Assembly: GCA_027563935.2 (NCBI GenBank) | Contig: CM050450.1 | Location: forward strand, 33,405,439-33,469,438 | Origin: Costus lasius | Lineage: Eukaryota; Streptophyta; Magnoliopsida; Zingiberales; Costaceae | Direction: 5' to 3' | Length of the DNA stretch: 64,000 nucleotides | In this document: in pieces, positions 14,650 through 58,709 of the stretch | How the letters are laid out: every line of letters begins with the position of its first letter | How positions within the stretch are numbered: position 1 is the first letter of the stretch | The notes under the pieces: generated by a model | The model's input: only the letters and a program-made list of their open reading frames with translations | The model's database searches: none | What the model was told of the DNA's origin: nothing | Program-made: the position numbers and the translations under genes

Positions 14650-15060
14650 GAATATATCTGCTCTAACTTACCAAACCACTTAGATCCAATAAGTATATCT
14701 AACATATTATCTAAGCGAGGTATAGAAAATCAATATTTAATTGTTATTTTGTTAATGGCTCTACATCTATATATGTACCAACTTACATCCTTCTTAGGTA
14801 TTAAGAGGGTAGGCATAGTACAAAGGCACAAACTTTCTCTTATGAACCTTTTACCCAGTAGTTCATGTATTTGTCTTTTTAACTCTTCATGTTCTATAGG
14901 GTTCATATAGTAGCGGGGTAAGTAGGAAGAGTTCATCTAGGCACTAACTATATAGCATCTTGGATGTCTTTTAAAGGTGGGAGTCCTTTAGGGAGCTCTT
15001 CAGGGGCTAGTTCACTTTTGCTTTCGAACATAGTTTATACCTCTTCAAGAGTCTCTAGTT
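14650..15060 (-). pseudogene. Ty3/gypsy reverse transcriptase relic
   Basis: The minus-strand translation gives ELPKGLPPLKDIQDAI, then [42 protein letters not shown] and IPRLDNMLD. This is the start of a chromoviral-type RT domain, with in-frame stops and at least two frame changes. The catalytic YxDD part is absent. It is an old fragment with no LTRs nearby. Confidence 0.75.
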
Positions 15061-15689
15061 TTGATTCCACGTTTATTCCTTTAAGGATTAATGTATAATG
15101 TTATAATTTCTTGATATTCTTCATGAAATTTTGGGCTATGATTAGATGAATAGGTTGCTAGGGGGTATGCTTAGTTTCAATTACCTTGCCCCTGGAGGTG
15201 GAAGATCTTAATTCCCTAGGCATTGAGGAGTAGAACTTAAAGCTAGAATAACATATCACGAGAGTAAAGGTCGGTTTATCATAGAGTTGGGCATTCAAGA
15301 GGAGACATTTCTAACCTTAGAGTAATTTCTCTTTAGCAACACTCAAGCAAATGAAATAAAAATTTGTTATAGTTTTCTATTAAGTTTCAGAGTGGTGAGA
15401 ACTTGTCTTAAATTTTTCTAATCGATTTTTCATAAATTATTACTTCATTTAAATTTCTCTATAATTATTTTAAAAGCTCAATTTGCTTAGCTAGTATAAA
15501 AATAATTTATTCATACTTAACACATAGGCCCCTATGGGATAAATATATTTTATTGCTTTAATGTATTCATGCACTTGTGGATACATTAACACACTTGCCT
15601 TTTCTAGGGTTATTAATAGACAAAGGGATTACATTGCATATAAAAAAAACTTTGTTACTAGCCAAGAGTTGTCCATTGACGATATTTTC
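15061..15689. other. AT-rich non-coding stretch
   Basis: No gene or clear repeat is seen. Part of it may be decayed gypsy pol continuing upstream of the RT relic. Confidence 0.3.
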
Positions 15690-16790
15690 TGATGGCTTGG
15701 GTAATAATAATGTGTTGCTAGATACCTCTCACTACTTATGATGACTTATCCGATTCATCATTGTTAATGTCATTAGGGACCTACAGGGTCATACGCGTAG
15801 AGACTTGAAGGTCACATTTTGATTGGATAGACTTATATCGAATTATAGATTAATTTAGATCCATTTGAGACATTGGAGATATCAGATTAAGGTAGGATCA
15901 AATGGACATTTTATATATATCGATCTACAATGAGAATTGGGCTAGACGCCCATGACACCCATTCCAAGTGATCTAGAAGAGCTAATTGGACTTTATGTCT
16001 AATAAGGAGGTCGACCTTAGATCTAGGGCACAAATAAGGCCTACACAGGTGACTAGGTGCATTGTAATGCACTATATAAGCCTCATTGGGCTTTGAGGCC
16101 TAGGAGGGCAAAGACTAAGGTGCCTACAAGTGTATAGCACCAATAATGGGGCCGTAATGACATGAAAAAGGGGATTAGATCACTACATTAGGCTCAAAAC
16201 TAAATGAGATTGATAGAGGCACCTATAAGGACCTAGTTCTTGCAACAGGCCATCATTGGTAGTGGCACCAATAAGGTTGGCACAGGTAGCAAAGGTAGGG
16301 GCACATATGCCTTGCTTGGTAGTCAACTACGTGATCTAGGAACCAAAGGGAATAGGGAATTCCATCAGAATTGCCCTCAATGATAAGCTCCTTTCCTCAT
16401 GCTATTTGTGCCTAGCCTTGGCACAACTAGTTCCTTGAAGTGGGCAGTCCATATTGCTAAAAGAGCAAAGGTCGACCAACACCAATACATGCACATCCCT
16501 TGCTCCTCTCTCTAGCCGATGCCAATACATACACATATGTTCTTCCCTCTAGCCGACGCCCTCTCTCTCTCCCTTGCTCCTCTTTGTTGCTAACAACTCC
16601 ACATCCTTTCTCCATGTGATTGTGAGCTCCAAGGAGAATTTCTAAGAATCCTTGCTCTCAAGGCTATCACCAAGCATAGAGCAAGGTAATCTTCAAGGGG
16701 TTATTGTGTGGATACTCGTAGAGGGTGAATAGTTGAGTGCCTATAACTTGTCAGTTGCCAACTACAAGTATGCATCAAGGTAAATTTTCT
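15690..16790 (+). repeat. Decayed copia LTR fragment
   Basis: About 15710-15815 matches the LTR phrases at 2760-2840 and 28485-28570: 'gttgctagatac.tctcact', then 'gacctacagggtc' after a short spacer. The downstream part (16060-16700) holds leader-like, CT-rich sequence. Exact ends cannot be fixed. Confidence 0.45.
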
Positions 16791-18403
16791 ATCTCACCTT
16801 TTGGGCCTTGTCTCACATGAATCCTCTGGGATGGAAAATCAATTTCAGTTTCCATTGCATTAAATTATTGCTAAACTGTTATTTTTTTTGCAGTTTCCCC
16901 AACTCATACAGCTTCCTTTTCTACTTGAGGAAAATCCTTAAGTTTTGGTACCAATCCTTAAAATTTATTCCCATCAATCTCTCCTTATCAAGGAGTGATC
17001 TCAATGAGAGTGTTGCTAGAACAACAACCATGATCTACAATCATACAGAAAGGCAAGATAAGTACTACGAAAAATGATTTAATTGAGACTTAACTAAATG
17101 ATTATGCTCCCTCTATCTCTTCATTAAATTGGCAACCCTCCAAGCTAATTTGAAAATGTGAGAGTAGGATCCTAACTCCATAAGGGGCTTTGCATCCCTC
17201 AAGGGAGGGACAGGCTACATAAAATGATCCCTTGTTTTGTCAGGTAGGCTCCCTAGCCAATTGCACTTAGTGCAACTTCACTTAGCCAAAATATTCACTT
17301 AGCCAAAATAGTCTAGTCATCCTATGTCCAATGAAAGCTAAAACTATATAGGATTCTAACCTTACAACATGTGCCTCTAAAATTTTAACATGTTTAAAAT
17401 ATGTGAAACTTTTAGTTAAGTTTAACATAACTGTTATATCTAGGGCCAATATGTGTCTCACAAGGGCACGTCCCGATGTAAACATATGGGGATTAAGTCC
17501 ATATATTGAAACCACACACCACCTAAAGATAAGTGGGTGTGTCCCATAAGAGTGAAATACACATCGCAATACCACCAATCGATAGTTTAATGATGCCTAC
17601 ATGCTAGAAAGCATACAAACTTGATATTTAAAAGACAGTTTATAAAAACTAAAAGTCTCACTAATTTTTTCTTTTAATTTTTTATTCTAAAATGGAAGAT
17701 TTCATGTAGTGAAAGATCAAAATAGAAATCATAAAACAATATAGTATGGACAAAACAAAACAAGAACCATTATAGGTATGCTTAAGTGATCGATATGGTT
17801 ATAGCTCTCTTCGTATGCATCGTCTATCATGAGCCAAGTGACTCTCACACATATCCAAGCGTAACGAGCCCTAACAAACTTGAATCAACCCATGCCCAAG
17901 CCAACTACACCAAGCACCAATCTGTGACCACCAACATCCATGAAACCAAGTCCTCCAAGTGTCACCACCGCCCATGGCTGATAGTGCATGCTCAAGACAT
18001 GATGGCAGAGAGCTCCTTAGTCGAGAGCATTATGTTATGATGCTTGAAATGCCTCGAAAACACTAGAAGATAGGATTACCTAGATGCAACGTTGGGTAGA
18101 CATCATGGGTGAAAGATTAGCTTTTGTCGGCTAAAAATTCCTTCTTTTGTCTCCAGCAAATTTCGTTCGATGCTAAGTGTCTTCCTGTCATGCTCCGACA
18201 CTTACAATTTGTGCTAGGGTTAGAGTGGGAGTTGTGGTGGGGTTTTTTTTTTTCCATTAATACCCCATATTTCTCTCCAAATAGCATGACTTTAGTGGAT
18301 GACATAGTTGCCAGAACATGCACGGGCAAAGATGAACTGATCGTCATTACTACAGTGAGACCTATACTTAACAATGGTTGACCTACTACCACAACACAAA
18401 TGT
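16791..18403. other. Non-coding stretch
   Basis: Nothing recognisable on either strand: AT-rich with short spurious frames. The 17780-18040 section is less AT-rich but has no family match I can name. Confidence 0.3.
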
Positions 18404-18483
18404 GCACCCAACTGGTTGGCTAGTTGTGTCTGATAACTAAACTTTGAAGTAGCATGTTGCAGGTTTGAACCTCTTGTGGGTGC
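18404..18483 (+). repeat. tRNA-like / SINE-head relic
   Basis: The ends gcaccca (18404-18410) and tgggtgc (18477-18483) would pair as a perfect 7-bp acceptor-like stem. Inside are an A-box-like ggttggctagttg and a B-box-like ggtttgaacct (18462-18472). The anticodon arm does not fold as a normal tRNA. A T run follows at about 18502-18508, as in a pol III terminator. It is a tRNA pseudogene or SINE head. Confidence 0.4.
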
Positions 18484-19369
18484 AAATTCAAGCAAGAACT
18501 CTTTTTTTATAAAACTTATTAAATTTATTTGTTATTTAATTATAAAAATTTAAATAAAATTATAAAAATTTCCTAAACTCCTCAAAAAAATTAGACTTAA
18601 TATTTCTAAAGTCCTAAAATTATTTTTGGATATAAAATCAAAAATTTAGCATATTACAATTTTACTTTATAAAATTCTAGACAAAATGTTCACCATCTAG
18701 ATACTTTTATTTGCTCCAAGATGGCTTTCTTTTAGTGGAAGTTCCATTTAACATTACTCCTTTTGGCCACTTGTCCACACCTGGCCTATATCCCATAGCC
18801 CATTTGTCCTTCATAAACCCATGTATCAATAAAGCAAGTAGCAGACTAATTTGTGTTGAGCTCATCATAAGTACCTCGATGCCTTGGGATTTGGTCAGTT
18901 TTCATCAGTGAGTTGTATTAATTTTAAAGTGGCTAGTTATACTTGGTTACTTGGGTACCTCTTTAGTAGGAAACATTGAGATGGAAAGGTTAACCTTTTA
19001 GCGGTCTGTATCAAGTTTGTATGGCATCTATTGTCACATAGCTTATGTGATTGGGTGCTAGCTTGTAAGGATTTGCATGACTCAGTTTGTGTTTTGGGTT
19101 AATTGACCAGAGATTTACATAGCTCTGTCGTCAATATGAAACCTTCAATGACTTGGGCGCCGAAGCCATTTTCCACTCACCCATCCAGTTCCTCCCAGCT
19201 GAACACCCATGAAGAGGATTATGTATCTGCTCCAGCCAAGAATCTCCCTGGGTCTTCTCCCATGCAAACTAATATTCCGGTATCTTATTCTCATTCTAGG
19301 GCATGTCCAGGTGGTAACTCTAGCAAGCCTCCATGATGCAGGAGCATACAACATAGAAGAAGGGGAAAA
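18484..19369. other. Non-coding stretch
   Basis: AT-rich DNA with no supported gene. A frame at 19103-19336 is Ser/Pro-rich with no family match. Confidence 0.3.
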
Positions 19370-19452
19370 CTTGCTCCAGGAGGCGCCCCACAAATTTTCT
19401 GTGAGTTCTGGCATCATAGAATGTTCCATGGTCGACCCAACGACCGAGACCG

Positions 19453-19608
19453 CTGCCCGCGGCTTCTGCAGCGGCGCTCCAGACCACACATCCCGATCTA
19501 TACAGAACATTCCTCAGGGTACCAAGCGACCTGCCCGCGGCTTCTGCAGCGGCGCTCCAGACCACACATCCCGATCTATACAGAACATTCCTCAGGGTAC
19601 CAAGCGAC
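19453..19608 (+). repeat. Exact 78-bp tandem duplication
   Basis: Two adjacent copies (19453-19530, 19531-19608), both starting ctgcccgcggcttctgcagc, look identical by eye. 78 bp is 26 codons, so the frame is kept. Identity implies a recent duplication. Confidence 0.9.
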
Positions 19609-19830
19609 CGAAGTCACACCCGAAGAATTTTCTGTGGATTCTGGCAAGTATGCACAGAATGTTTCGCGGTCGACTCAGCGACCGAAGTCACACCCTGAGG
19701 AAGTTCCTGTGGAAAAAGTCAAGTATGCACAGAATGTTCCACGGTCGACCCAGCGACCAAAGTCACACCCCGAGGAAGTTTCTGTGGACTGTGGTAAAAA
19801 AGTCACGGGGTGTGGAACTGGTCATGGGGT
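19606..19830 (+). repeat. Divergent ~75-bp tandem repeats
   Basis: About three copies of a unit running from 'cgaccgaagtcacaccc' through 'aagtatgcacagaatgttcc' to 'cggtcgacccag'. A further degenerate copy overlaps 19390-19450. The 25-codon period keeps the frame. Confidence 0.8.
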
Positions 19831-20194
19831 GACCCGTGGAAATCCTGAAACTGCCGATTTGCCCCAACGGCCCCGTTTTGACGTGCACAACCCTCCCCAC
19901 CATGTTCATCCATTTGAGGAGGATCCAAAGGAGCCCAACAAAGTGATTATTCGGCTATCCCGACGCACATCCCATCCGCCGGATCGTTTCATGGGTGTCG
20001 TCAGCCCACTTGCAATCCACACCGAAATGATCCAGCCCAAGGGTGCCATAGACCAGCCCCTAAGCGGCCCAACTCTGGAAGGACACCGCAATCATGTCAG
20101 TAACACGGCCCAAGAGTGTGCCACGACGTCGGTGACTCAGCCTACGACGTCCAAATTCTGCTGCTTCGTCGCGGTATGCTCCAAACACGTCTAA

Positions 20195-20775
20195 CTACCT
20201 TCGCAACCACCTCGTACCAGCAGGAATCAAAGGACCTGCGCCAGTCCACTTTAGTTGCTAGAAGTTTGTTAATCTTTTGTCCCTTGTAGCAGTTTTTGTC
20301 CTTATGTAGCAGTCTTGACTACTTTTGGGCTGCAAAAGTAGGTAGTTGGTAGGAATTCAGCCCTTGTCTTGTTCCCCTCTCTTATCCTATAAAAGAGAAG
20401 GGGTGGGCTAGCTTCATTCTCAGTTCTCTAGAGTGGTAGAGTGCTCCAACTTGTGGATATCCAGGAGAGTGCCTCGATTCCAAGGTTGTACGCGTCTTGC
20501 CTCGATTTCGAGGCGTGTGAGAGTCGTGGTCGGTGCCTCGACTCGAAGGTCCATTTCCAGCATTATAAGAAGTAAATCCCACCGCCCCGGTGGGTCAGGT
20601 TCGCCTGTTTTCCATTCCCTCGTGTTCTTTTCCGCTGTAGTTTCCCTCTTTTCCACAAGTATCCGCACGGCGGAGGCGTGGTCGTTCCTTGTTTTTGGTT
20701 TGTTTCAGGCGCATAGGCACGCGAGTTGTACGCTGCGAACCCGCTGTCCCCCATTGTGACGTGCTAAGCTTAAAA
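20195..20775 (+). repeat. Putative LTR or leader fragment with TATA box
   Basis: It has no ORF of note. The 'cttatcctataaaagagaag' stretch at 20382-20401 is a good TATA box. It is followed by CT-rich leader and a 'tgcctcga.tc.aagg' phrase repeated three times (20466-20550). Position after a pol-like tail suggests a gypsy LTR, but no second copy or primer site is visible to fix its ends. Confidence 0.35.
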
Positions 20776-21149
20776 TTTGCTAGGAGAGCGCACTAAATGA
20801 TAAGAGGTTAGTGACGTATTTTCAGTAGTTGCGTGTCGTTGATTCCTTCTCGCATTTATGTTGCCCCGATCGAACTCGACGCTGATTTCTTCGTGCTTTC
20901 CTGCTATTTTTTGAACGCTTTTCACTTCCCTCGTCTAAAGACCCTCTCCCGTTTTCACGTGCATTGTGTAATCCCTTAGAGTACGGCTTTAAGGACCCTC
21001 CTACCCACTAGTAGCTGCATCACTCCAAATCTAGATTCCTGTGAAGGTCTTGGTATGAAGACTCCTTTAAACTTATTAGATGATATAAATAAACAGGTAT
21101 CTCACAAATAGATCAAACAAATGCCCTAGAACCATTTAGGGCTTTGCTT
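20776..21149. other. Non-coding stretch
   Basis: Nothing recognisable. Confidence 0.3.
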
Positions 21150-21513
21150 TCAAATTCCATGAAGAAAAAACTTAAAAAACTAGAAAAGAACAAAAAAAGC
21201 CAAAATGATTGTGTTGGATGAAGGCTTCATTAGCCCTAATTTTGCTGTTAGCTCACCAAAGGATCCTAAGAGCACAAATCCTATACCCATGGATTTCTCA
21301 TGAATTAGAATATTGAAGCTATTCTATGCTGGAATATTAGAGGATTTAATGCTACAAGGAAACATTTGCTAACCTTCCTAAAGCAATATAGGATTAAAAT
21401 GGTTTGTTTATTGGAAACCAAAGTTAAGGAGCAATTATCAAACAAGATTATCAAATCTATTTTTCTACGATGGGATTTCTTCTAGAATTATAATGTTGTG
21501 TCGGGTGGCCGCA
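21150..21513 (+). pseudogene. LINE (L1-type) ORF2 start, cut by the Athila element
   Basis: From about 21316 the frame reads ILCWNIRGFNATRKHL, then MVCLLETKVKEQLS and FLRWDFF. This is the opening of the apurinic-endonuclease domain of plant L1-type LINEs, including the catalytic N of WNIRG and E of LLETK. One in-frame TAG lies near 21484. The upstream 21150-21290 Lys-rich stretch may be the end of ORF1. Homology stops at the Athila LTR border (21514). The RT part is not found to the right of 35623. Confidence 0.7.
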
Positions 21514-23181
21514 TGACACGATCCGCAAGTGCACGGTTATGTCGAAGTAATATAAAAGATGTCGAATCCCACAGGGAACAGAGTTAAGTATCAAAAGGTC
21601 TAAGTTTCAATAGCTAGACGAACAAAAATGAGGTTTTGCAAACTTCAATTGTAAACGAGAAACTAAATCAACGACTAAGAAAATATGAATGAGAAAGATC
21701 AGGGCTATGGTATCCACCACGCTGACAATTAAATATGCGATAAAAAGATCGATTATATGGAACCTATCCCTAAGGTACAGGATGCCCCCTCTCGGTGGTA
21801 CACCCCGGTGTTTATGTAGAACGGTCTCCTACTCTCGCGGTGGATCGTTCTGAACAAACCCTATGCGTTCTATGGAAGGGTAAGAAATCCTCGAGTGAAT
21901 TCCAAGCACTCTCGTGTCATGGATTCACAAGTCTTACAGAGAAGATCCACCGTCATGATTCTCCTCTCGGTATGAATCGTGCCGGCTAACACATGAAGAT
22001 ACGTGGCCAATGTAAAATCATGAAATACGCAAGTAAAGTAAAATATGTAAATACAAAGATCCAAATAATTGTTTACAATAAGAATTTGCAAGTATCAAAT
22101 GTCAGCAGGTTTCAACCGAGCCCTAAAAAAGGTTTTACGCTACGGAGTACATGGAATTACTGAAAGTTCTCTCAATAAGCATAGAAAAAATACAAGAAAT
22201 CATTTCTAAAGGGGAAGAGACGCTAAACCAAAGCCGATCTCTAGGAATTGAGACGCTAAACCAAATCGCCATAAAATCCCTGTGTCGCCTCTGTTCGTCC
22301 ACCCTTGTCGCCTTTCACTCGATTTCTTGATGATTAGGGCATGAAAATTGGGGCTTTTATATTCCACGCGTTCTCCTTCAAATCAGGTTTTCAAAAAGTC
22401 CTCCCTTTCCAAATTTGGACATCAATCGGGTAAGAAATCCACGAAAATCCGATTAGAAGTCGGGTGCTCGTTCGCTGGGGTTGGAATCTCGGGTGATCCC
22501 CGCCGGGTTCACCTGCCTGTGAAACGCTCTGGGCTGTATTGGTCGAGGGAAGCACGGGTGAACCCCGCTGGGTTCACCTGCCCGTGATGTGCTCTGGACG
22601 CTTTTGGTTGTTGTCGCAACAGAGAGAAGCACGAGTGACCCCCCCCCCCCCCCCCGGGTTCACCTGGTCGTGAAGTCTTCTGTGAACATCCTGATGTCTG
22701 GCGAAAGCACCGATGAACCCCGTGGGGTTCACCTGGTCATATTTTTCAGGATAACTCCGATTGAGCCCAAATTTGACGGGCAGCTTCGTTTTCACGTGAG
22801 GAATCACCCTGTGACTTTAAAATCTCCAAAAGACATCAAAATTAGGTGATTTCACCTGAAATTCCATAAGAACAAGAAAAAGTGAAGATTCCAAAGTTTT
22901 TAGGCAAATAAGTCTTAACAGAGTAAGAAAATACCGTTAACTCCGATTGAGCCCAAATTTGACGGGCAGCTTCGTTTTCACGTGAGGAATCACCCCATGA
23001 CCTTAAAATCTCCAAAAGATATCAAAATTGGGTGATTTCACCTGAAATTCCATAAGAATAAGAAAAAATGAAGATTCTGAAGCTTTTAAGCAAATAAGTC
23101 TTAACAAAGTATGAAAATATCAATATAGCCCTAGATTTATCATGAAAAATTAAGGAAAATCATTATTAAGGTAGGGCATCA
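21514..23181 (-). repeat. Athila 3' LTR (complete)
   Basis: Plus-strand ends are tgacacgatccgcaag and ...gggcatca. It contains four hairpin motifs (22492-22733) and an internal tandem duplication of about 189 bp beginning at 22749 and 22938, both with 'actccgattgagcccaaatt'. One hairpin has a run of 17 C. Confidence 0.88.
22492..22733. repeat. Array of four GGTGAACCC hairpins in the Athila 3' LTR
   Basis: Inverted repeats of form GGTGAACCC-n4-GGGTTCACC lie at 22492-22513, 22557-22578, 22634-22664 and 22712-22733. Position 22557-22578 is a near-perfect 9-bp stem. Confidence 0.85.
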
Positions 23182-34293: not shown

Positions 34294-35623
34294 TGACACG
34301 GCCCGCAAGTACACGGTTATGTCGAAGTAATATAAAAGATGTCAAATCCCACAGGGAACAGGGTTAAGTACCAGAAGGTCTAAGTTTCAATAGCTAGGCG
34401 AATAAAAATGAGGTTTTGCAAACTTCAATTGTAAACGAGAAACTAAATCAATGATTAAGAAAATATTAATGAGAGAGATCAAGGCTATGGTATCCACCGC
34501 GCTGACGATCAAATATACGATAAAAAGATCGATTATATGGATTTAAGTGTTTTGCATAAGGAACCTATCCCTAAGATACAGGATGCCCCCTCTCGGTGGT
34601 ACACCCTAATGTTTGTTTAGAACGGTCTCCTACTCTCACGGTGGATCGTTCTGAACAAACTCTATGCGTTCTATGGAAGGTTAAGAAATCCTCGAGTGAA
34701 TTTCAAGCACTCTCGTGTCATGGATTCACAAGTTTTACAGAGAAGATCCACCGTCACGATTCTCCTCTCGGTATGAATCGTGTCGGCTAACACATGAAGA
34801 TACGTGGCCAATGTAAAATCATGAAATATGCAAGCAAAGTAAAATATGCAAATACAAAGATCCAAATAATTGTTTACAATAAGAATTCGCAAGTATCAAA
34901 TGTCAGCGGGTTTCAACCGAGCCCCGAAAAGGGTTTTACGCTATGGAGTACATGGAATTACTGAAAGTTCTCTCAATAAGCATAGAAAAACTACAAGAAA
35001 TCATTTCTAAAGGGGAAGAGACACTAAACCAAAGCCGATCTCCAGGAATCGAGACGTCTTGATGATCGAATCTCGCCAAATCACCATAAAATCCCTATGT
35101 CGCCTCCGTTCGTCCGCCCTTGTCTACTTTCGCCTGATTTTTCGATGATTAGGGCATGAAAATTGGGGCTTTTATATTTCACGCATTCTCCTTCGAGTCA
35201 GGTTTCCAAAAAGTCCTCCCTTGCCAAATTTAGACATCAATCGGGTAAGAAATCCACGAAAATTCGATTAGAAGTCGGGTGCTCATTCGCTAGGGTTGGA
35301 ATCACGGGTTAACCCCGCTGGGTTCACCTGCCGGTGAAACGCTCAGGGCTGTATTGGTCGAGGGAAGCACAGGTGAACCCCCGCCGGGTTCACCTGCCCG
35401 TAATGTGCTCTGGACGCTTTTGGGTGTTGTCACAACAGAGAGAAGCGCGGGTGAACCCCGCCGGGTTCACCTGGTCATAAAGTCTTCTGTGAACATCCTG
35501 ATGTCTGGCGAAAGCTCTAGTGAACCCCATGGGGTTCACCTGGCCGTATTTTTTAGGTTAACTCCGATTGAGCCGAAATTTGACGGGCTGCTTCGTTTTC
35601 ATGTGAGGAATCACCCCGTGACC
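34294..35623 (-). repeat. Athila 5' LTR, outer end deleted
   Basis: It aligns with 21514 onward until about 35623, then homology stops abruptly and exon sequence of another gene begins. It lacks the LTR start, roughly 180-370 bp depending on the tandem duplication. It carries four hairpins (35306-35328, 35372-35394, 35449-35471, 35519-35540) and a 22-bp segment ('atttaagtgttttgcataagg') absent from the other LTR. Confidence 0.88.
35306..35540. repeat. Array of four hairpins in the Athila 5' LTR
   Basis: GGTGAACCC/GGGTTCACC inverted repeats at the same relative positions as in the other LTR, so they predate the insertion. Confidence 0.85.
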
Positions 35624-38600
35624 ATATGTTCCAAACAAGCAGCACTAAATCCAAATTTATTATCTAAATACAAACCCATATAGGTTGGAGATATGTAATC
35701 AAAAGCCAACAACTTCGTCTTCTTGGGATTATTCCGACCTCTAGCGACCAAAAGACCAGCATAAGCATCTACAACCTACAGTTAATACAATCAGCATAAG
35801 CATATGCTAAACAAATAGTATAAAATAGTAAAATAAATAGGTATTTATACATACATCATCACTAACGTCCATCCCAAACATCAGCTGAATAACTTTCACC
35901 TTGTTAACTCTCCATTCGGTACCCATGTGCAAAAACTTCTCTGAGAACTTCATATATAATGTCATATCATTTCTTTCTTCAGCAGACAATGCCCCATATC
36001 CATAATAATCTGTTTGATCCACATACTGAAAATATAATATGGACATATAGATGTCAATCACTAAAATCAACAAATGCATGAAGGATAATTGAAAAGGATA
36101 GCCATCAACAATAATCTAGTTGATAAAGAATTGGTACAGTAGATAATAATTGATACCTCATCAATATTCATATAGATCTTGGACTCATCAAATGTAGTGG
36201 GAGGAACTGGGTACTTCTTGTTCAATTCCTCTTGTGAATAATGGCACAGTAGGCCCCATTTTCTCTTTCTTTGTCTTTTCCCTTGCATATCCACTGCACC
36301 AGATGTGCTGGGGTCTTCTGCATTTGTGTCCTCTTCATCATCTGACCAATCGGTATCTTCATCAGATAGCTGCTCCCTTTCAGCTACCATTTTCTTTATT
36401 TTGTTTTCATACTCCTCAACTAGTAATTTTGAAGCCTCTATTTGGTTTTCTTTCTCAACATTTTGGGAGTGAATTATCTCCTGTAACTCATCTATTTGGC
36501 TCTGAAATGCTCTAGACAAGCTATATTTCTCGTCGATCAATTTCTCTACTCTGCCTGAAATTTCAGTCACAGCTGATTTCAGTTTCTTATTTTCCATAAC
36601 AAGTCTATATCTATAGTAATCTAGGTCTTTCTTCATATCAGTTTCCTTTTTGTTGTAATGCTCAATAATGTCTTCCTTCTCTTCAGTGAGCTTCAGTACT
36701 TGAGCTTTGAGCTGTGCTATATCTGTATCATCATTTGTAAGCTCATTTACCCTTCCTTGTAATTCTTCAACTTTAAATTTTAATTCTGCCTCCATTTCCT
36801 CTTTCTCCTTCCCAATCTCCTTTATCTCATCCTCAGCTTCTTTCAGCTTCAGCTTCTCCTCTTCAATACCTTTCTTGTAAAATTCAATTTCCTTCTGCAT
36901 ACCTATTTGCAGCTTATTGTAATGTGTATGCACGCTTTCTATCTCTTCTCTTAGCTTCTCTACTTCTAATTTCAGAATAGCTATCTGAGATATATTATCA
37001 TCTTTATTTACCTATATCAAAACAACAAAATATCATTCAAGTACATACTGGAAATTATGTATGTCGTTTAGTATAACACTGAAAATTATGGTATAACAAG
37101 GCAATAATTTGGTATAACACTTATGTAGTTTAGTATAACATTAAAAATTATCGTATAACAAGGCAATAATTTCGTATAACACTTATGTAATTCAGTATGA
37201 CACTGAAAATTTTGGTATAACAAGGCAAAAATTTCGTATAACACTTACGTAGTTTAGTATAACACTAAAAATTTTGGTATAACAAGGCAAAAATTTCGTA
37301 TAACACTTACGTAGTTTAGTATAACACTGAAAATTTTAGTATAACAAGGCAAAAATTTCGTATAACACTTACGTAGTTTAGTATAACACTGAAAATTTTG
37401 GTATAACAAGGCAAAAATTTCGTATAACATGTCATTTACCGAATAGCAAGTACATATTTTTGCATAACAACTTAATATTTTTAATATACTAACAATGTCA
37501 AGTTGAGCTGATAGGGTCCCAGGTGTAGGGTCTGGTGTACTATGTGACGGGCCAACATCTTCATGGCTCTACGCACAAAATTAACAAAAAACCCCGTTAA
37601 GTTATTACGGTATACAACATGCACAGTTTGTAAACATACTTACACTATGTGATGGGCCCACATCTAACTCTTGTACACCGTGTGATGGGCCCACATCTAA
37701 CTCTTCCTCGAGAGCTGTTTCTAATACAGGTGGAGTATTTACAACATCACGCTCCACCTCAACAGCTTCAAGTTCAAAAATAATCTACAAACAACTAAAT
37801 AGTATTAGAAAACCAAATTTGACAAATGACTTACTACACCTACAAATTTACATACTTACCGAATATTTATTTAATTTACAACATTTTTTTAAATACGTTG
37901 TCCATCGAGTACAATTCACATTTGCCCAACGGAACAACCGAGGGTATACTCCTTCCACCTTTCTATCTATATACAAGGTGGTATGATCATAAAACCAAAT
38001 CTACAACAAAGAAGAATACAAACAGTTAGCTTGTAATTAACGTAATTAATTTGAAATACAAGTTCAGATAATGCAAAAGACTTACACCAAGAACAATGAC
38101 ACAACCAGCAAATCCACGTCCCTTCTTCTTTGAACTGGACGTCAATTCCGTGCATAAAAACTTATGCACGGCTTCTGCCCAATTGTAATCACCCAATCTT
38201 GAGAGGTCTTCTACGAAGCATACAAGCCCCGCATCCAAGCTGTATGTCAGGCGACTGAATAGAAAACAGGAAAAGAAATACAAAATGGCTAATCTTCTTA
38301 TCCTCTCCTCATTTCCTTCAAGGCCTTGTGAGCATATGATTCTCAATTTTTCTTCAATTATATTCCTATTAGGTAACTTCCCCTCAAATTCTTCAGAGAA
38401 GAATCTAGTACTTGGTCGCTTATTTTCCCATCTTACTAACTCCCCAACCCGTGGGAGACCAAGGATGATTGATACATCCTTAACCAAGAATGGCACAAAA
38501 TTGTCATTTATGTTGAATCCCTTCCTTTCAGGTTCCCATATGGACTGCAAAAATTCTACTGCTATCATATCCAAGGCAACGAATGCCCTTTGCAGCAAAT

Positions 38601-40316
38601 GTCCAAAGGGGGTCTCTAGAAGCTGTACTTTAATAGCCTCACCCTCTGGCTCCGTGTTCACAAATGTATGAATCCGGCTTAATGAGCATCTACTGAGAAC
38701 TCGCCGACGTTTGCTGACCTTGTCATGATATTCCCTTTCATCTGAAGAGGTACTAGCTGTGCTTTCATCCGTAACCCTCATCCTCTTTGTATAAAACCTA
38801 CTGTTAAATATGTTATAACTAAATTAACATGAAGAACTCAAAAGGTGAGTTGAAGCTATTATACCAAAATGTGATGCAGTTATACCAAGTTTGAGGCATG
38901 TATATCAAAATAGGATGTTGTTATACCAAATTAGAGACATGTTATACCTAAATGGGATGCTGTTATACCAAGTTTGAAGCATGTTATACCAAATTAGAGA
39001 CTTGTTATACCAAAATGGGATGTGTTATACAATGTTAGAGACATGTTATACCTAAATGGGATGCTGTTATAACAAGTTTGAGGCATGTTATACAAAAATG
39101 GGATGTGTTATACTATGTTTGAGGCATGTTATACCAAAATGACCAGCTGTTATACCAAAATAGAGACATGTTATACCAAAATGGGATGTGTTATACTAAG
39201 TTTGAGACATATTATACCAAAATAGAGACATGTTATACTAAAATAGAGACATGTTATACCAAAATAGAGACATGTTATACCAAAATGGGATGTGTTATAC
39301 CAAGTTTGAGGCATGTTATACCAAATTAGAGACATGTTATACCAAAATGGGATATGTTATACTATGTTTAAGGCATGTTATACCTAAATGGGATGCTATT
39401 ATAACAAGTTTGAGACATGTTATACCAAAATGAGATGTTGTTATACTAAGTTTGAAGCATGTTATACCTAAATGGAATGTTGTTATACCAAGTTTGAAGC
39501 ATGTTATACCAAAATGGGATGTTGTTATACTATGTTTGAGGCATGTTATACCAAAATGAGATACTTTAATACCAAGTTTGAGGCATGTTATACCAAAATG
39601 GGATGCTGTTATACTAATTTTGAAGCATGTTATACGTAAATGGGATGCTGTGATACCAAGTTTGATACCAAATTAGAGACATGTTACACTAAAACGGGAT
39701 GTGTTATACCATGTTTCAGGCATGTTATACCAAAATGACCAGCTGTTATACGAAATTTAGGTCTTGTTATACCATGTATGTGCAGTGTTATACCATGTCT
39801 GTCAAGTGTTATACCGTGTCTGTGCAGTGTTATACCATGTCTGTGAAGTGTTATACCATGTTTGTGCAGTGTTATACGAAATTTAGGTCTTGTTATACCA
39901 TGTATGTGTTGCCCTCATTGTATAGAACCTATTGTTAAATATGTTAGAACTATATTAACATGAAGAACTCAAAACCGCCGAAGCTATTATACCAAAATGA
40001 GGTTCTGTTATAACAATTTTGAGGCATGTTATACCATAATAAGGTGCTGTTATACTAAGTTTCAGGCATATTATGCGTACAATTAATACTATCAGAAGAA
40101 TTAGCAACTAACAGCTTCCTTTTAAGACTATTTCCCAAACAGATTCACGCACAATACAAATTATGCAAATATCATCAAAGTGGGTTGCTATTATACCAAT
40201 TTTCCACGCATGTTAAATCAAAAATAGGTCATTAATACAACAATGTACGTATTAATAAGATAAATTCCGACATTATACCTTAAAGGAACATTGGAGTCAT
40301 CGGAGGAACTCGCCAT
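35624..40316 (-). CDS. Transposon-type 8-exon gene: plant-mobile-domain/DUF1985-like N-terminus plus coiled coil, 3' truncated (VANC/KAONASHI-like candidate)
   Basis: Deduced exons, minus strand: 40316-40279, 38797-38086, 38000-37860, 37784-37644, 37568-37494, 37011-36157, 36025-35855 and 35775-35624 (cut). All inferred introns begin GT and end AG, and the exon lengths keep one frame for about 761 codons with no stop. Residues about 60-300 resemble plant mobile domain or DUF1985 proteins (VKDVSIILGLPRVGELV; the hydrophobic block RRLAILYFFSCFLFSRL; DYNWAEAVHKFL; then WFYDHTT). Exon 4 repeats ELDVGPSH. Exon 6 is a long Glu/Lys coiled coil ending in an acidic stretch and a basic GKRQRKRKW, a possible nuclear signal. 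Exon 8 (VVDAYAGLL) resembles the lead-in of Ulp1-type proteases. Introns 1 and 5 hold motif arrays. The fusion of these parts occurs in Mutator-like element genes (KAONASHI, VANC), but a domesticated host gene is possible. The product could be a nuclear DNA-binding anti-silencing factor; that is inference. Confidence 0.65.
37060..37437. repeat. Intron-5 array: six ~62-bp units with ~18 GTATAACA motifs
   Basis: Each 62-bp unit carries three motifs (agtataacact, ggtataacaagg, cgtataacactt) about 20-21 bp apart. The last three units are nearly identical and the first three more diverged. On the gene's own strand the motif reads TGTTATAC. Confidence 0.9.
38855..40075. repeat. Intron-1 array: ~50 TGTTATAC motifs every 20-21 bp
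   Basis: Motifs gttatacc, gttatact, gttatacg and gttataac are separated by short spacers such as aaatgggatgct, aagtttgaggcat and aattagagacat. Example starts: 39232, 39253, 39274, 39294. Several kinds of spacer are mixed, so the array is a mosaic, not a simple satellite. The motif is on the opposite strand to that in the intron-5 array. A sub-block with tgt-rich spacers lies at 39770-39905. Confidence 0.9.
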
Positions 40317-41064
40317 GAGATCCTACAAAAAAACAAAGAAGATTAGAAAACCCTAGCCCAAACAAGAACAAGTCATATACCGTCGCAGGTCATCAAGCAA
40401 CAATGGGACGTTTGCGGAGGTTGTCGGAGTTCATAGCAGGACGTCGGAGGTCGACTGCATAAAAAACACAAAGTTAGGGGTCGACCCGAGCAGGCACTCG
40501 GAGGCCTCGGAAGTCGTAAACACATAGTAGAAGGTTGTCGGAGGTCGTCGGAGGCCGTCGGAGGTCGTCGGAGGGTGTCAGAGAAGATCGGGCGACAACT
40601 TTTGTCACAACAGCAAAGTAGGGGTTGGGGAACAGATTAGGAGAGTAAAAAGTAAGGGCGGGTTGGGCGGGTTGGGCGGGATGCGAAAATTTTCGGAGTT
40701 AACTCTGGTTTGTTAGTTCGTAACGGACTACTAGCATGCCAAGTATTTATCGCAGCTGACATATTTATTTATTGGATGCATGATGCTGTGCCACAGTGCC
40801 AGCATGCTAAGTATTTATCGCAGCTGACACATATACTCACGGCTGACAGAGGAAACTGAAGGGAAGGGACGCGAGGCGGCTATCACTATTTTAATTTTAA
40901 ATTTTCTAATCAATTAAATTTAATTTATATTAATTTTAAAACTAAAAAATCAAACTGATTTTATTTTAGTCTTTTCTAAACTGAATGGACTCGAATCAAT
41001 TTATTATAAAACTAAATTAAACTAATTAATTTAATTTAATTGGGTTTAATTTATCATATTGAAT
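40317..41064. other. Upstream region of the motif-array gene
   Basis: Includes a CGG-rich stretch with 'ggtcgtcgga' repeated (40390-40570), a triple 'gggcgggtt' (40655-40680), a MULE-like 'gcgaaaattttcgg' palindrome (40683-40696), and a direct repeat 'agcatgc.aagtatttatcgcagctgaca' (about 40731-40760 and 40801-40830). These may be promoter or the transposon terminus. The 40880-41060 part is A/T-rich. Confidence 0.4.
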
Positions 41065-41440
41065 TGATTAATGGACTGGTCTGCTATGAGATTTCCAAGT
41101 TCTACTTCAAGATTTTGAACAATAATAAAATTAAAAATTTATCTCCACATTATTGACTAAACAGTGCAGTAGAACATTTTGAAGAGGAAAAATGATGCAA
41201 CCGTTGGCTCCTCCAATCACTTAGCCAAAAATTCTTTCTATGTTATTTTCTAATCTTACGAGAAAACAAAAGAATATCGATGGAAAATGAAGAACGTCCT
41301 TACATTCATCCACCGGATGTGACCTTCTTTGGACTGTAGCTACATATGATAGACATCGACGAGTCAACTGTGTTTAATTCCACGAGATGGATAACTGGAC
41401 ATCTCAATGGGTGAGTCTTTGCAGAGTCAACGACAACCAG
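41065..41440 (-). promoter_or_regulatory. Orphan copy of a WAK upstream/5' UTR region
   Basis: It aligns with the region upstream of WAKa (58410-58709, then 60787-60835, then about 62560-62600 after removing two solo LTRs). Shared phrases include 'gatgagattt', 'ttattgactaaa', 'gatggaaaatgaagaacg' and 'catagac.tc.a.gagtca'. The coding sequence expected to its left is absent, so this is a promoter-only remnant of a third WAK copy. Confidence 0.6.
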
Positions 41441-44149: not shown

Positions 44150-45274
44150 CTAATATTTTTCTTGTTTTATCATTTTTCTCGGATGCTGTAACTCGAATTC
44201 TACTTCTTTCATTGTGGGCCTATGATCCCCCTTTAGTTGGAGACATTTTTCCGCGATAAGCATAACTTCATTGAGCTCTTCTTCTGACCCTTCTTTCATA
44301 ACACATGCCTCCAAAATATCAAAAACATGTTCTTCTCTTATTGCTCCTAAAAATTACATTTACAAATTGACTTGTCCCCCCTGATCATTATAGAAAATTG
44401 GCTTCTTGCTTGTTAAAAGCTCTACAAGGATTACTCCAAAGCTATAAACATCACTCTTCTCTGTCAATTGCCCTGTTTGGTAGTACTCAGGATCCAAGTA
44501 TTCGAATGTGCCTTGCACAAATGTACGTATGTGAGTTTGATCACATGGAATCGATCTTGAAGCTCCAAAGTCTGCTACTTTTACAGTGTAGCAGTCGTCT
44601 AAGAGTATGTTTGATGACTTAACGTCCCCGTGGAAGATAGATATGGAGGCTACAGAGTGCAGATAAGAGAGAGCAGATGCATCTTCTGTAGCAATCCGTA
44701 AACGAGCATCCCAAGGTAACAAAGAGCTATCACTTTGGTTGTGAAGGTGATCGAATAATGCTCCATTTGAGACGAATTCATAAACAAGCAACGGGACTTC
44801 AGTTTCCAAACAACATCTGAAAAGCTTGATCACATGTCTATGATTAATTTGGGAGAGAATGACAACCTTATTTATGAACTTATCTATCTCCTTCTTCTTC
44901 GTAATCTTAGACTTTTTGATGGCAACTATTCTTTGATCCAATAGAATGCCTTTGTAAACCATTCCATGTCCTCCACGGCCGAGAATTCGAGTATCATCAA
45001 AATTGTTAGTTGCCTTCTCTAGTTCTTTCAATGTGAATATCTTTGTCTTCTCTGATGTATCCATACTTGTCGACAGTAGTTGCTGTAGTAACAAACCGTG
45101 ATTTTGTCGAAAGTGTCTTCTTCTGATTTCTTCATGTTTCCTTCTCTTCCATTTTTGAGCACAGAAGGTGAAACTCGTAGCTAGAAGAAGAATGCCGACG
45201 CCAGTAGTCATGCCAATTATTATACCTGCGTTAGAATAGATCTCTTCGTAGTAACGTTCAGATTTTGTCTCCAA
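44150..45274 (-). pseudogene. WAKb: transmembrane and kinase exon of a wall-associated-kinase-like gene
   Basis: Starts with a membrane segment ([19 protein letters not shown]) and a basic stop-transfer. Then comes a Ser/Thr kinase domain: glycine loop [15 protein letters not shown]-binding VAIKKSK, catalytic loop [16 protein letters not shown] in VADFGASR, and [14 protein letters not shown]. The HGD form is common in WAK-like kinases. Two in-frame TAA codons (44360-44362 and 44354-44356) replace residues just after QVNL. The same frame then continues for about 65 codons (REEHVFDILEA..., LKGDHRPTMKEVEFEL) to a stop at 44150. Without the lesions this would be a plasma-membrane receptor kinase signalling from the cell wall. 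The second EGF (calcium-binding) exon expected upstream is not found. Confidence 0.85.
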
Positions 45275-45339
45275 AAAACATGTTAATTTATAAAGCTTTA
45301 CCTAGGAAGAGAATATGCCTTTTGTTTGAAGTGCAGAAT

Positions 45340-48297: not shown

Positions 48298-48337
48298 AGA
48301 AATTTGGACAATCTAGTAAAATCGGCCTTTTATCGGA

Positions 48338-49107
48338 GAAAATTTTGAAAAAAATTTGGAGTTGGGTGCCCTATCGCCAATACACGAATCCAAAAGTATA
48401 TTTATTAAATCTTAAAGTTAAGTCAATTTTACAATTCTTAGTCAACGTTCATAATGTTTAAACTCAGATTTAACCCTGGTTAAAGTCAACATTCACGAAA
48501 ACTACATTGACTTACACGAAAACTGGTATCATTTTCACGAAAAACTATTATTATTTCACAAAAAACTATTACCATTTCACGAAAACTGAACTGATTTTAC
48601 AAAAAACTATTATTATTTTACGAAACTGAACTCATTTCATGAAAAATTGTTACGAAAACTGAACTCATTTTGTGAAATCTCACCTATTTTTCATGAAATA
48701 TCATCTATTTTTCGTGAAATCTCACCAGTTTTGTGAAATCCTGCCCAGATTTTGTGAAATCCCACCCAAATTTCATAAAATCTCACCCAGATTTCGTGAA
48801 ATCCTACACAAATTTCATGAAATCCACCGAATTTTTGTGAAATCCCTCATAATTTCAGGCAATAATATTAATTTTTATTTAATTCACCTAGATGTTTATG
48901 TAAGTCAACTAAAAAATCATGAAAATTAACTTCAACCAGGGTTAGAGCTGAGTTAAGACATCTTAAAATTTGACTGAATATCATGAAAGTTAACCAGGCT
49001 TTGAGATTAGCATTTATACTTTAAAAATTGTATCTTGCCGATGATGGCACCCAACTGTAGATGCGGCAGTTGGGTACCCAGCTACCAAAATTTTTTCGAA
49101 AATTTTC
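48338..49107. mobile_element. Foldback/Mutator-like element with palindromic ~21-bp repeats
   Basis: The ends gaaaattttgaaaaaaattt (48338) and, reversed, gaaaattttcgaaaaaattt (49107) begin imperfect inverted repeats. These extend inward at least to the 'aactcag.tttaaccctggtt' block near 48465 and its mirror near 48945. The flanks tatcgga/tatcaga (48331-48337, 49108-49114) may be target duplication. The core (about 48485-48860) is an array built on the palindrome TTTCRTGAAA at roughly 20-23-bp spacing. No ORF of note. Confidence 0.65.
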
Positions 49108-49430
49108 TATCAGATTCACTGCTAGGGAAAAGTAACGCCATCATCCTTCATTTTTCTTTATGATTTATGTTGCTAACTCTGAAAAAATATTTTTTTCTAA
49201 TAAAAATATAAAACATTTCCACGTAATGGTTTGTCATTTGATTGGCCGGTGGCACCTGATTTATCTTATATTTTAACATGGGATTTAAGAGGTTTAATGT
49301 AATAACTATTTTAGTTGTTTTAATAAATGAACCTGCTGAGTATTGACACTGTTGTGCAAGGTCTCGTTAGAGGAATGACGTAACTATTCATTAGCATGGT
49401 CATTGCACGTGGCAGTGGATGCAACATTAC
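49108..49430. other. Probable WAKa intron
   Basis: AT-rich and non-coding. It lies just 3' (minus strand) of the WAKa splice donor GTAATG at 49430-49425. No kinase exon for WAKa is found further on that is distinct from WAKb. Confidence 0.45.
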
Positions 49431-52700: not shown

Positions 52701-52840
52701 AATAACGTTGTTTGGGAGGTGCGTACGTCGATACTTCGTATCGGGGCGTAGTTCCTCATTGTTGTTACAACATAACTCAGATTTTTCTCCATGACTTATG
52801 ACAAATGCATATTAGTTTTGAGAGTAATTTTTCAAATTGA
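49753..52840 (+). other. Leader of the gag-only copia element: low-complexity and degenerate repeats
   Basis: Contents in order: repeated 'gagaagaaaaatct' phrases (49990-50270); A-rich low complexity (50310-50560); three to four ~57-bp 'ggatactcctacaaaat' units (about 50716-50900); three ~120-bp 'acatccaacggctgagattc' units (51290-51710); and about five 150-190-bp degenerate units built on 'atctc.g.caatcggttga' (51730-52560). A block near 49815-49870 ('cgtacgtcgatatt..tattggggcgta') recurs at 52720-52760. Confidence 0.6.
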
Positions 52841-52844
52841 ATAT

Positions 52845-53540
52845 CTAACAAGCCACAAGACCGAATATCTTAACCCAACAAGCCATTGAGGCTGGGTAAT
52901 TTCTTAAATCGAATATCCAACATGCCGCAAGGCCGGATATCTTTACCTCACAAGCCATTGAGGCCGGATAATTTCTCAAATTGAATATCCAACACGCCAC
53001 AAGGCCGGATATCTTTACCCAATAAGCCATTGAGGCTGAGTAATTTCTCAAATCAAATATCCAACACGCCGCAAGGCCGAATATCTTTACCCAACAAGCC
53101 ATTAAACCTGGGTAATTTCTCAAATCGAATATCCAACACGCTGCAAGGCTGGACATCTTTACCCAATAAGCCATTGAGGCTGGGTAATTTCTCAAATCGA
53201 ATATCCCACACGCCGCAAGGCCGGATATCTGTACCTAACAAGCCATTGAGGCCGGATAATTTCTCAAATCAAATATCCAACACGCCGCAAGGCCGGATAT
53301 CTTTACCCAATAAGCCATTGAGGCTGAGTAATTTCTCAAATCGAATATCCAACACACCGCAAGGCCGTATATCTTTACCTAACAAGCCATTAAGCCTGGG
53401 TAATTTCTTAAATTGAATATCTAATACGCCGGAAGGCCGGATATCTTTACCCAACAAGCCGTTGAGGCAAGGTAATCTTTCAAATCAAATATCCAACAAA
53501 CCGTTGAGGCCGAATATCTCTGAAATTAAACATCCAATAA
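52845..53540 (+). repeat. 72-bp tandem array (~10 copies)
   Basis: The unit is a dimer of two related ~36-bp halves: one with 'ccaacacgccgcaaggccgg' and one with 'acaagccattgaggctggg'. Because 72 is a multiple of 3, long meaningless frames are open on both strands. Confidence 0.9.
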
Positions 53541-53559: not shown

Positions 53560-53957
53560 TCACGAATTCAAATGCTCACAAGTCATCAAGACCGAGCACA
53601 TGTCGAATTCAAACGCTCACAAGTCGTCAAGACTGAGCACATATCGAATTCAAATGCTCACAAGTCGTCAAAACCGAGCACATGTCAAATTCAAATGCTC
53701 ATAAGTCATCAAGACCGAGCACATGTAGAATTCAAATGCTCACAAGCCGTCAAAACCGAGCACATATCAAATTTAAATGCTCACAAGTCATCAAAACTGA
53801 GCATATTCAAATTCAAATGCTCACAAGTCATCAAGACCGAGCACATGCCGACTTCAAATGCTCACAAGTCATCAAGTTCGAGCACATGTCAAATTCAAAT
53901 ACTCACAAATCATCAAGACTGAGCACATGTCAAATTGAATATCTAACAAGCCATTGA
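53560..53957 (+). repeat. 41-bp tandem array (~9 copies)
   Basis: Unit 'gaattcaaatgctcacaag' plus 'tcatcaagaccgagcacatgtc', starting at 53564, 53605, 53646 and 53687. Its core resembles the 36-bp half unit of the neighbouring array. Confidence 0.9.
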
Positions 53958-57487: not shown

Positions 57488-58409
57488 TTGGGCACATAGG
57501 GATTTCCATGGAAGCCCCAGGAACTCTAGCAGAAATATCCGATTCCAACCGCAGAATAGTTATACATCCAAGCATCGAAGCAATCGCTGTTGCTGCTGAG
57601 GCAAGCGTAAGAGTCGTGTTTCTTCTTAGCCTCTTCGCAGGTCGGCTGATCGTTAATGAGCCAACTCAGGTCGACCTCCACTTCCCCTTCAATCCCATCT
57701 AGTTGCTCTGATTCGTAGTAGTCACTCGAGATGAAGGCCTTGATGGTGGAGTCATTCGTCAGACGCAGCACACTCTGATTGAGCCGGGTTAATTGAATCG
57801 CTAATGACTTGGTCAGATGTTTCCAGTTGTCCATGTATGGAGAAACATAGAGCCGGCAGTAACCGATGCCATCAGGTTGAAAATTTTCTTTGGGTCTTGT
57901 GTAGTTGATCGGGCAGAGAATCTTGTTGCGAGTGGGATCGATTAAAGTGGCATCCGCAATGCAACAACTGACCCACAACTTTAGGGATGTGAATGCATAT
58001 TCGTGGTCGCTGAATCCGAGATCACCTAGCGAAAGAAAGTTGTAGGGACCGTCAGCCGGGAGATTGATCAGGGATATGTGGGTAGATACCACTTCAACGC
58101 TCATGGTGGTGACAGCTCTCTTGATGAACAAGGTACCGTACTCGGCGGTGATGCTCTTGTTGAGTTCCATATCGGAGTGGCCGAGCAAGAGCTTGGGGGG
58201 AGTGGTCGAGTCATTGCAGACGAGCTCGAAACTAGGGCGAAAGCAACTGGGGCCGATGCCAAAGGGGTACTCTATGCTGAGGCCGCCACAGCTGGTTGGG
58301 CAGGTGGACAGGAGGGGAAATGTTGGAGACACCATTGCGGAGGTCGCCGATGTTAGTTGTAGTAGCACCAGTAGTAGCAGGGAGATCTTACGCACAGACT
58401 TCATCATTG

Positions 58410-58709
58410 ATTCATTTGTCTGCGATGAGATTTCTAGATTCTAAGATTGGAAGTTCAACCCTACATTGTTGACTAAATAATGCAATCTTGAGGTGGAAAA
58501 ATGGTGCACCCGTCGGCCCCTCCAATCTATTACCAAATGCTATGATTCCTTCTATGTTTTCCTAGTCTTATCGTTTCAGGGTATTCAGTATACAAAAATC
58601 AAACTTAATACCAAAGGGAGAGTGCGATCGAAAATGATATAATGAAATACGGTGATGGAAAATGAAGAACGAGAAATAACGCCCCCACTTTCATTCATTG
58701 GGGTGTGAC
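58410..58709 (-). promoter_or_regulatory. WAKa 5' UTR and proximal promoter
   Basis: Lies directly upstream of the WAKa ATG and is similar to the orphan copy at 41065-41440. Upstream continuity is broken by a solo LTR at 58710. No strong TATA box stands out. Confidence 0.5.

Follow-up and report, generated by a model that had tools for sequence, protein, structure and literature searches.

A putative plant mobile domain gene with motif arrays in its own introns, from a Mutator-like element of Costus lasius: a candidate anti-silencing pair

Dense arrays of a short motif, GTATAACA, occupy two introns of a truncated gene in the genome of Costus lasius, and the protein encoded by that gene may be the one that reads them. 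The gene lies in a window of 64,000 nucleotides (the whole stretch analysed here: contig CM050450.1 of assembly GCA_027563935.2, forward-strand positions 33,405,439 to 33,469,438) and is a truncated fragment of a family of Mutator-like DNA transposons (Mutator-like elements, MULEs), fuller members of which encode a borderline plant mobile domain (PMD), a coiled-coil-like region and an Ulp1 domain. By analogy with the VANC proteins of Arabidopsis VANDAL elements, we think it reasonably probable, though far from secure, that the PMD protein binds the arrays within its own element and opposes silencing. That it reads GTATAACA we infer because the sites are confined to non-coding parts, are evenly phased, retain mainly their core and are laid out like those of VANC21; the further step from binding to anti-silencing is drawn entirely from what VANC and PMD proteins do, or may do, elsewhere.

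The gene and its intronic arrays

On the minus strand, between positions 35624 and 40316, eight exons separated by GT-AG introns join into 761 stop-free codons (Table 1), a structure proposed by an earlier reading of the letters alone (the original prediction) and since strengthened on two counts. Exons 2 and 6 stay open for 237 and 285 codons, which none of 1000 base shuffles of either could match, and the splice from exon 2 to exon 3 is supported because joining the two lifts the PMD score from 23.2 bits for exon 2 alone to 35.7, exon 3 contributing 12.5. The predicted coiled coil also held, exon 6 being coiled-coil-like with a weak match to the ATG16 profile (E 1.9e-4; 22.1 bits, under the cut-off of 33.7). 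A protein database search with a 765-residue read scored 7992 candidates and returned none at E 0.001 or better, a PDB sequence search gave no match at E up to 10, and the predicted structure of exon 2 alone had a mean predicted local distance difference test score of 37, too low for use. The ratio of observed to expected CpG was 0.32 in intron 1, 1.4 in intron 5 and 0.44 in the exons, and gave no clear picture.

Position 35624 had been taken as the end of the gene. The frame instead runs into a long terminal repeat (LTR), so that this end is a cut and not a natural stop; between the LTR and its partner lie ATHILA, reverse transcriptase, RNase H and gag domains of a gypsy element. No 5-bp target duplication was seen by eye at the LTR borders, and nothing resembling the missing Ulp1 part of the gene was noticed by eye in the frames listed for 15000-21560, beyond the retroelement. 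Upstream of the first exon, homology to other copies ends, and no terminal repeat of the kind that bounds the 12.2-kb copy described below was found; the one match to that repeat found in the window, with five mismatches, at 41409 on the plus strand, was taken as chance. The gene copy in the window has been cut at either end and is a fragment, though all eight of its exons are open.

All 60 exact copies of the motif in the window (GTATAACA or TGTTATAC) fall within the introns of this gene, 43 on the minus strand in intron 1 and 17 on the plus strand in intron 5, which agrees with the earlier description of these introns as largely motif arrays. Allowing up to one mismatch adds 34 copies across the rest of the window, four in intron 1 on the opposite strand, one in exon 2 and one in intron 7. 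Spacing is mostly 20-21 bp; pairs so spaced number 51, and 100 shuffles give none. The two arrays run in opposite directions and have the core in common and little else. Higher-order units (62, 42 and 83 bp) occur, and within intron 1 a 62-bp stretch of the exon-2 border is duplicated (38782-38843 and 39913-39974, 92% identity).

Conservation within the arrays was assessed on units aligned by their period and not picked by their core, with significance from permutation of columns. The 8-bp core is the best-kept stretch of both, scoring 0.963 where the other columns score 0.695 (p 0.0008), and 0.993 where they score 0.679 (p 0.006); for intron 1 taken at a period of 42 bp, the values are 0.981 and 0.801 (p 0.0004). 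At a 62-bp period, where the units of intron 5 are recent copies, core and spacer are kept alike (p 0.99). Two minisatellites of the same window, with periods of 72 bp (52824-53498) and 41 bp (53565-53936), served as controls and showed no such concentration (p 0.80 and 0.67), and in two 21-bp arrays at 48.5-48.8 kb it was not significant (p 0.25 and 0.29). At 48337-49108 lies a small element whose inverted ends, 21 bp long, are 90% alike. It holds 15 words like TTT[CT]RYGAAA, spaced 19-21 bp apart save for one gap of 33, and these words may form another motif class that shares the spacing of the first.

A multicopy family within a Mutator-like element

Across the 1.279-Gb assembly that holds the window, three motifs in a row with gaps of 12 or 13 bp occur 8,747 times (4,581 and 4,166), against 1 and 0 for the reversed control. 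The gene is multicopy too, with at least 105 matching exon stretches at many places (59 of 2,968 candidates were scored, hence a lower bound) and exon-6 matches outside the window that are 74-93% identical. These 105 rows were collapsed by hand into 46 gene places, the window's own included. Thirty loci were fetched, of which two are the window's own and two (L084 and L085) are one gene copy, leaving 27 other copies with some near-duplicates among them (L062/L063; L073/L074/L077). The search for arrays beside related genes, which the original prediction had called for, was thus answered in the affirmative: in each of the 25 copies showing exons 5 and 6, intron 5 holds no fewer than 12 exact motifs (in total 634 facing one way and 3 the other), all 25 showing exons 6 and 8 have at least six motifs 3' of exon 8, and 45,786 bp of exon alignments contain none. 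Upstream of exon 2, motifs in the gene's direction outnumber those in the opposite one by 35:0 in L085, 25:0 in L088 and 27:0 in L092, all three of the other copies in which this part was seen. Among 1,108 same-strand neighbours no more than 100 bp apart at the 30 loci (L084 and L085 both counted), 95% are separated by 20-22 bp or multiples of it, and in five further arrays, one of them at a locus where no gene was seen, the core stands at 0.94-0.98 and the spacer at 0.71-0.85, values to which no permutation test was applied. Locus L076 has no detected exon 5, yet carries motifs; L078, which retains exon 6 and a scrap of exon 2 alone, carries none.

The boundaries of the element are clearest in a copy on C2 (loci L092, L076 and L091), 12,182 bp long, with inverted ends (96% identity over the first 23 bp and 91% over another 69 bp) and a perfect 9-bp duplication, GCAGGGGTG, a target duplication of 9-11 bp being a MULE hallmark. 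When its 5' end was used as the query (40 of 367 candidates scored), 29 of 42 other rows began within 10 bases of the first base of the repeat and 13 further in, and none of the 42 reached more than one base outside it. A second gene, convergent with the first and built in the same way, lies in this copy and has an intron-1 array of its own and an Ulp1 exon. The exon 2 of this paralog has 68% protein identity to the window's, with a ratio of nonsynonymous to synonymous substitution (dN/dS) of 0.34 over 179 codons, and because of that ratio between the two paralogs we regard the PMD protein as under constraint. Long arrays lie between the two genes; arrays proper start about 0.83 kb inside each end, and single exact motifs stand 147 bp in from the right end and 695 bp in from the left. 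Frames of at least 80 codons in the fetched flanking parts (L091, L092), read by eye, showed nothing that looked like a transposase.

A transposase is present at C5:104.11-104.12 Mb (L081, L093), where the first gene, its exon 8 frame broken, is followed by an array, the transposase, another array and the Ulp1 exon of the convergent second gene. The transposase is a 767-codon frame with MULE (PF10551, 107.4 bits), FAR1 (71.7 bits) and SWIM domains, and all 59 exact motifs of L093, a fetched region that excludes the element's ends, point in one direction. A MULE domain lies within 12 kb of the gene at six or more of the 46 places, against 0.13 expected (150 of 1,086 candidates scored, hence a minimum). 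Membership in a Mutator-like element is in this way supported by relatives that sit within inverted ends and a 9-bp duplication or beside a MULE transposase.

The relatives also extend past the LTR junction of the window copy, the remainder of exon 8 and a ninth exon holding an Ulp1 domain (Peptidase_C48, PF02902). In L062 the two exons score 26.2 and 37.8 bits apart and 66.8 joined, and the paralogs score 36.4 bits (L091) and 27.3 bits (L093). The window copy has no Peptidase_C48 match, its frame stopping short of this part. At the catalytic positions, taken to be His, Asp and Cys and assigned by eye, the Ulp1 exons of L062, L069 and L091 read YNSL or CNSL where active proteases carry Asp. 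From the sequence, the protease of these relatives may be inactive, and the Ulp1-like domain is maybe a protease turned into a binding module.

Several observations concern the history of the family. Four copies (L062, L075, L086 and L090) are 78-92% identical to the window gene in exons 2-5 and mostly 92-99% in exons 6-8, and look like recombinants between two gene lineages. Three near-identical copies about 24 kb apart (C3:5036237, 5060308 and 5084407) represent a segmental tandem duplication. At C1:791262-793823 (L031-L056) there are dozens of GTATAACA, no gene that could be seen and one inverted-repeat end, at C1:793823; the locus may be an array-only relative or a fragment, and we do not claim it as a whole non-autonomous element, its left end and duplication not having been found.

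Features of the window and its surroundings

Table 1. Coordinates of the gene, its arrays and the truncating repeat within the window (position 1 is the first letter of the window)
Feature	Position	Strand	Remarks
5' region common to other copies	40317..40733	-	Homology ends at about 40733; no terminal inverted repeat found
Exon 1	40279..40316	-	ATG at 40316; gene model; 95% match to relative L085
Intron 1	38798..40278	-	1481 bp; 43 exact GTATAACA in gene direction, spacing mostly 21 bp
Intron 1 array	38859..40074		Blocks 38859-39908 and 39985-40074
Exon 2	38086..38797	-	First part of plant mobile domain; gene model and profile match
Plant mobile domain PF10536	37911..38538	-	Exons 2 and 3, residues 100-280, profile 27-216 of 347; coordinates derived from residues
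Exon 3	37860..38000	-	Gene model; adds 12.5 bits to PMD score
Exon 4	37644..37784	-	Gene model
Tandem peptide DVGPSH x3	37542..37697	-	Spans exon 4-5 border, residues 327-353; coordinates derived from residues
Exon 5	37494..37568	-	Gene model
Intron 5	37012..37493	-	482 bp; 17 exact motif copies, plus strand, opposite to intron 1
Intron 5 array	37066..37429		62-bp units, three cores apiece
Exon 6	36157..37011	-	285 codons, coiled-coil-like
Exon 7	35855..36025	-	Gene model; 83-98% identity in relatives
Exon 8	35625..35775	-	Truncated; in relatives runs on into Ulp1 (Peptidase_C48) domain
LTR cutting off the gene	34294..35622	+	Partner LTR 21514-22815, 89.5% identity

Elsewhere in the window, 44360-45301 and 57526-58440 encode protein kinase and wall-associated-kinase galacturonan-binding domains, apparently pieces of host receptor kinase genes. 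The 12.2-kb copy adjoins a thaumatin-like coding sequence (L092 3690-4090 and L091 6860-7040, read by eye). Eight other PMD loci of the same genome (L022-L029, 3.7-4.1 kb each) hold no copy of GTATAACA; two of them match the whole PMD profile and six only part of it per stretch. Many further partial matches (profile 1-167 and 272-346) resemble a large retroelement-borne PMD family.

Known systems, rival readings and implications

The closest known parallel is that of VANC21. It binds arrays that lie inside introns of both VANC21 and VANB21 and also ahead of VANA21, on its upstream side; the sites are densely packed in a single direction, in arrays that expand through tandem duplication (PMC5735166). 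DNA methylation is lost at the targets of VANC proteins (passages of PMC5735166 and PMC10398659). As with VANC21 and VANC6, a protein of the element other than the transposase is accompanied here by dense same-direction arrays of a short motif in non-coding DNA, within the introns of two element genes and near the transposase gene; the arrays grow by tandem duplication, and a variable region of the protein carries a tandem peptide motif, present in the window copy as three DVGPSH units. The motif is close to that of VANC21 without being identical, as the original prediction had said: TNGTATAACA agrees with YAGTATTAY in 8 of 9 positions, for which the chance is 0.012 among random 10-mers with A and T at 33% each, and agrees with AGTTGT[CA]C in 6 of 8 (chance 0.13). 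The framework GTNNNAC (chance 0.0069) occurs in the C-type motif of VANC21 and the AC-type motif of VANC6 and not in the CC-type, being common to YAGTATTAC-type sites and AGTTGTAC and missing from AGTTGTCC.

Unlike the VANC systems, the Costus element has a PMD in place of DUF1985, the core GTATAACA, a FAR1-type transposase and an anti-silencing function that is inferential, and it has clear terminal inverted repeats and a 9-bp duplication where VANDAL repeats are absent or degenerate. The termini are a soft criterion, as VANDAL relatives in other Brassicaceae do have terminal inverted repeats (PMC6446971, in part). Because DUF1985, degenerate termini and the known motifs (YAGTATTAY and AGTTGT[CA]C, neither matched in full by GTATAACA) were looked for and not found, we do not file the element as VANC or VANDAL; by domain, termini and motif it is neither. 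DUF1985 itself has 33 matches in the genome, the nearest 517 kb from any of the 46 gene places, and the three best loci (L094-L096) contain no GTATAACA. At three other places (C7:79355089, C9:36853041 and C9:14076494) DUF1985 matches lie 5-7 kb from MULE domains, and canonical KAONASHI (KI)- or VANDAL-like elements may coexist with the PMD type in this genome.

An Ulp1 domain in a MULE gene is also known from KI and from KIU, the Ulp1-bearing VANC genes, and from Jittery-like MULEs of grapevine and melon, in which ULP lies downstream of the transposase (PMC2528002, in part); VANDALs that carry KIU are said to recognise non-coding motifs (passages of PMC13317346). The available passages of both papers describe neither a PMD nor arrays in introns for these, and the two convergent paralogs are a further difference of the Costus element. 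PMDs inside MULEs have themselves been reported, and Ikeda and colleagues offered as speculation that PMD proteins captured by MULEs serve in anti-silencing (PMC5418596, in part); those were PMD-C-transposase fusions of grasses and Amborella, in contrast to the separate PMD-coiled coil-Ulp1 gene with candidate targets described here. Further background includes tea PMD genes that yield phased small interfering RNAs and unpublished VANC structures announced at meetings (passages of PMC10673657, PMC12859917 and PMC8756742). No PMD-Ulp1 gene with motif arrays of its own was found in the literature searched, outside which lay a 2022 EMBO J paper on anti-silencing in eudicots. Another parallel is TnpA of En/Spm, an element protein with a subterminal repeated motif and a link to demethylation. 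It resembles our case in pairing element protein and repeated motif, and differs in belonging to a CACTA element, in the subterminal position of its repeats and in the protein itself.

If the PMD protein does act on its arrays, it would, perhaps as a coiled-coil dimer or multimer, bind the GTATAACA sites that recur every two helical turns, both within its own introns and in the spacers that separate the genes of the element. Silencing chromatin would be removed or blocked there, allowing expression of the element and its array-bearing relatives, and the density of sites would restrict the effect to the family. A bolder reading, possible and in our view somewhat doubtful, is that a sequence-specific anti-silencing system arose for a second time. 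In this reading a FAR1/Jittery-type MULE that has inverted repeats would use a PMD protein for the part that the DUF1985 protein VANC plays in VANDALs, with two paralogous readers of GTATAACA sites two helical turns apart flanking the transposase.

Several results weigh against an anti-silencing PMD protein. The PMD call is borderline (PF10536: the whole protein scores 33.7 bits, under the cut-off of 34.9, and its N-terminal part of 284 residues scores 35.7), and the partial exon 2 of the paralog has no Pfam match. DUF1985 (PF09331), the alternative first suggested for the N-terminus, has no match in the whole protein at E up to 1 or in the N-terminal 284 residues at E up to 10, HMMER filters discarding most matches above E 0.1; a profile search of the joined exons has thus left the PMD half of that suggestion standing, at the margin, and not the DUF1985 half, and has located Ulp1 in the relatives and not in the window copy. 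Compared directly with eight other PMD proteins of the same genome, the window protein had a best E of 0.9, none being significant. Stops interrupt exon 6 in 18 of 27 copies (the window's counted), the median dN/dS among exon-6 copies of the first gene is 0.63 (337 pairs), only mildly below one, and exon 8 is frame-shifted in L081 and L083; no single copy has been established as open throughout. By eye, the Ulp1 site of L062 has His and Cys, and Asn stands in place of Asp in those relatives that were read, the paralog included. The comparison with VANC21 was made after the motif had been seen, and the FAR1-type transposase probably binds DNA in its own right. Of the three observations that the original prediction named as fatal to itself, two were looked for, a lack of profile similarity and a lack of related array-bearing genes, and in both cases the similarity or the genes were found.

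The arrays could instead be binding sites of the element's own FAR1/MULE transposase, comparable to the subterminal transposase-binding repeats known from other DNA transposons, with the PMD-Ulp1 proteins doing something else. This is unlikely, though it has some support: the L093 transposase has a FAR1 DNA-binding domain and sits between two arrays, and single exact motifs do occur near both ends of the 12.2-kb copy. The arrays proper, however, begin well inside both ends and fill introns and internal spacers, and the 12.2-kb copy has arrays and yet, by eye, no transposase-like frame among those of its fetched flanking parts. Somewhat less likely again is a regulatory role unconnected with anti-silencing, in which a host factor would use the arrays to control how the genes of the element are transcribed or spliced. 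Enhancers are common in early intron positions near the ATG, intron 1 starts 38 nt from the ATG start and the core is constrained, but arrays are also found between genes, on both sides of the transposase and in both directions, and a host site would not obviously need more than 8,000 triple arrays per genome.

Neutral minisatellites, spread by the transposon and without any reader, are still less probable. Tandem duplication is plain in the 62-, 42- and 83-bp units and in the parity of core and spacer at the 62-bp period of intron 5, and the word recurs in 20 stretches of a bacterial collection and in 1 of a viral one, mainly as near-perfect short tandem repeats, several with a 9-10 bp period and those of bacteria including the 20-21 bp spacing. 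Neutrality would nevertheless predict even divergence, whereas the gap between core and spacer amounts to 27 and 31 percentage points at the 21-bp period in the two window arrays, which moreover share little beyond that core. That this is an ordinary host PMD gene with repetitive introns is scarcely credible: host genes make up most of two among the three PMD clades (PMC5418596), but the gene is multicopy and its relatives stand inside an element with inverted ends and a target duplication, or beside a transposase, which already contradicts it.

Binding and anti-silencing by the PMD protein would supply a concrete pair of protein and target for the published proposal that MULE-captured PMD proteins counter silencing, the available passages of which name no target (PMC5418596). 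Sequence-specific anti-silencing would then not be peculiar to VANDALs, being a layout at which transposons arrive by way of various protein domains, and GTATAACA could serve as an address for editing the epigenome at chosen loci. The effects of dose and spacing can be tested inside one genome, which offers thousands of natural arrays. If the system was indeed assembled a second time, PMD proteins would act on both sides of silencing, for the host through MAIN and MAIL1 and for the transposon through the reader encoded among its own arrays.

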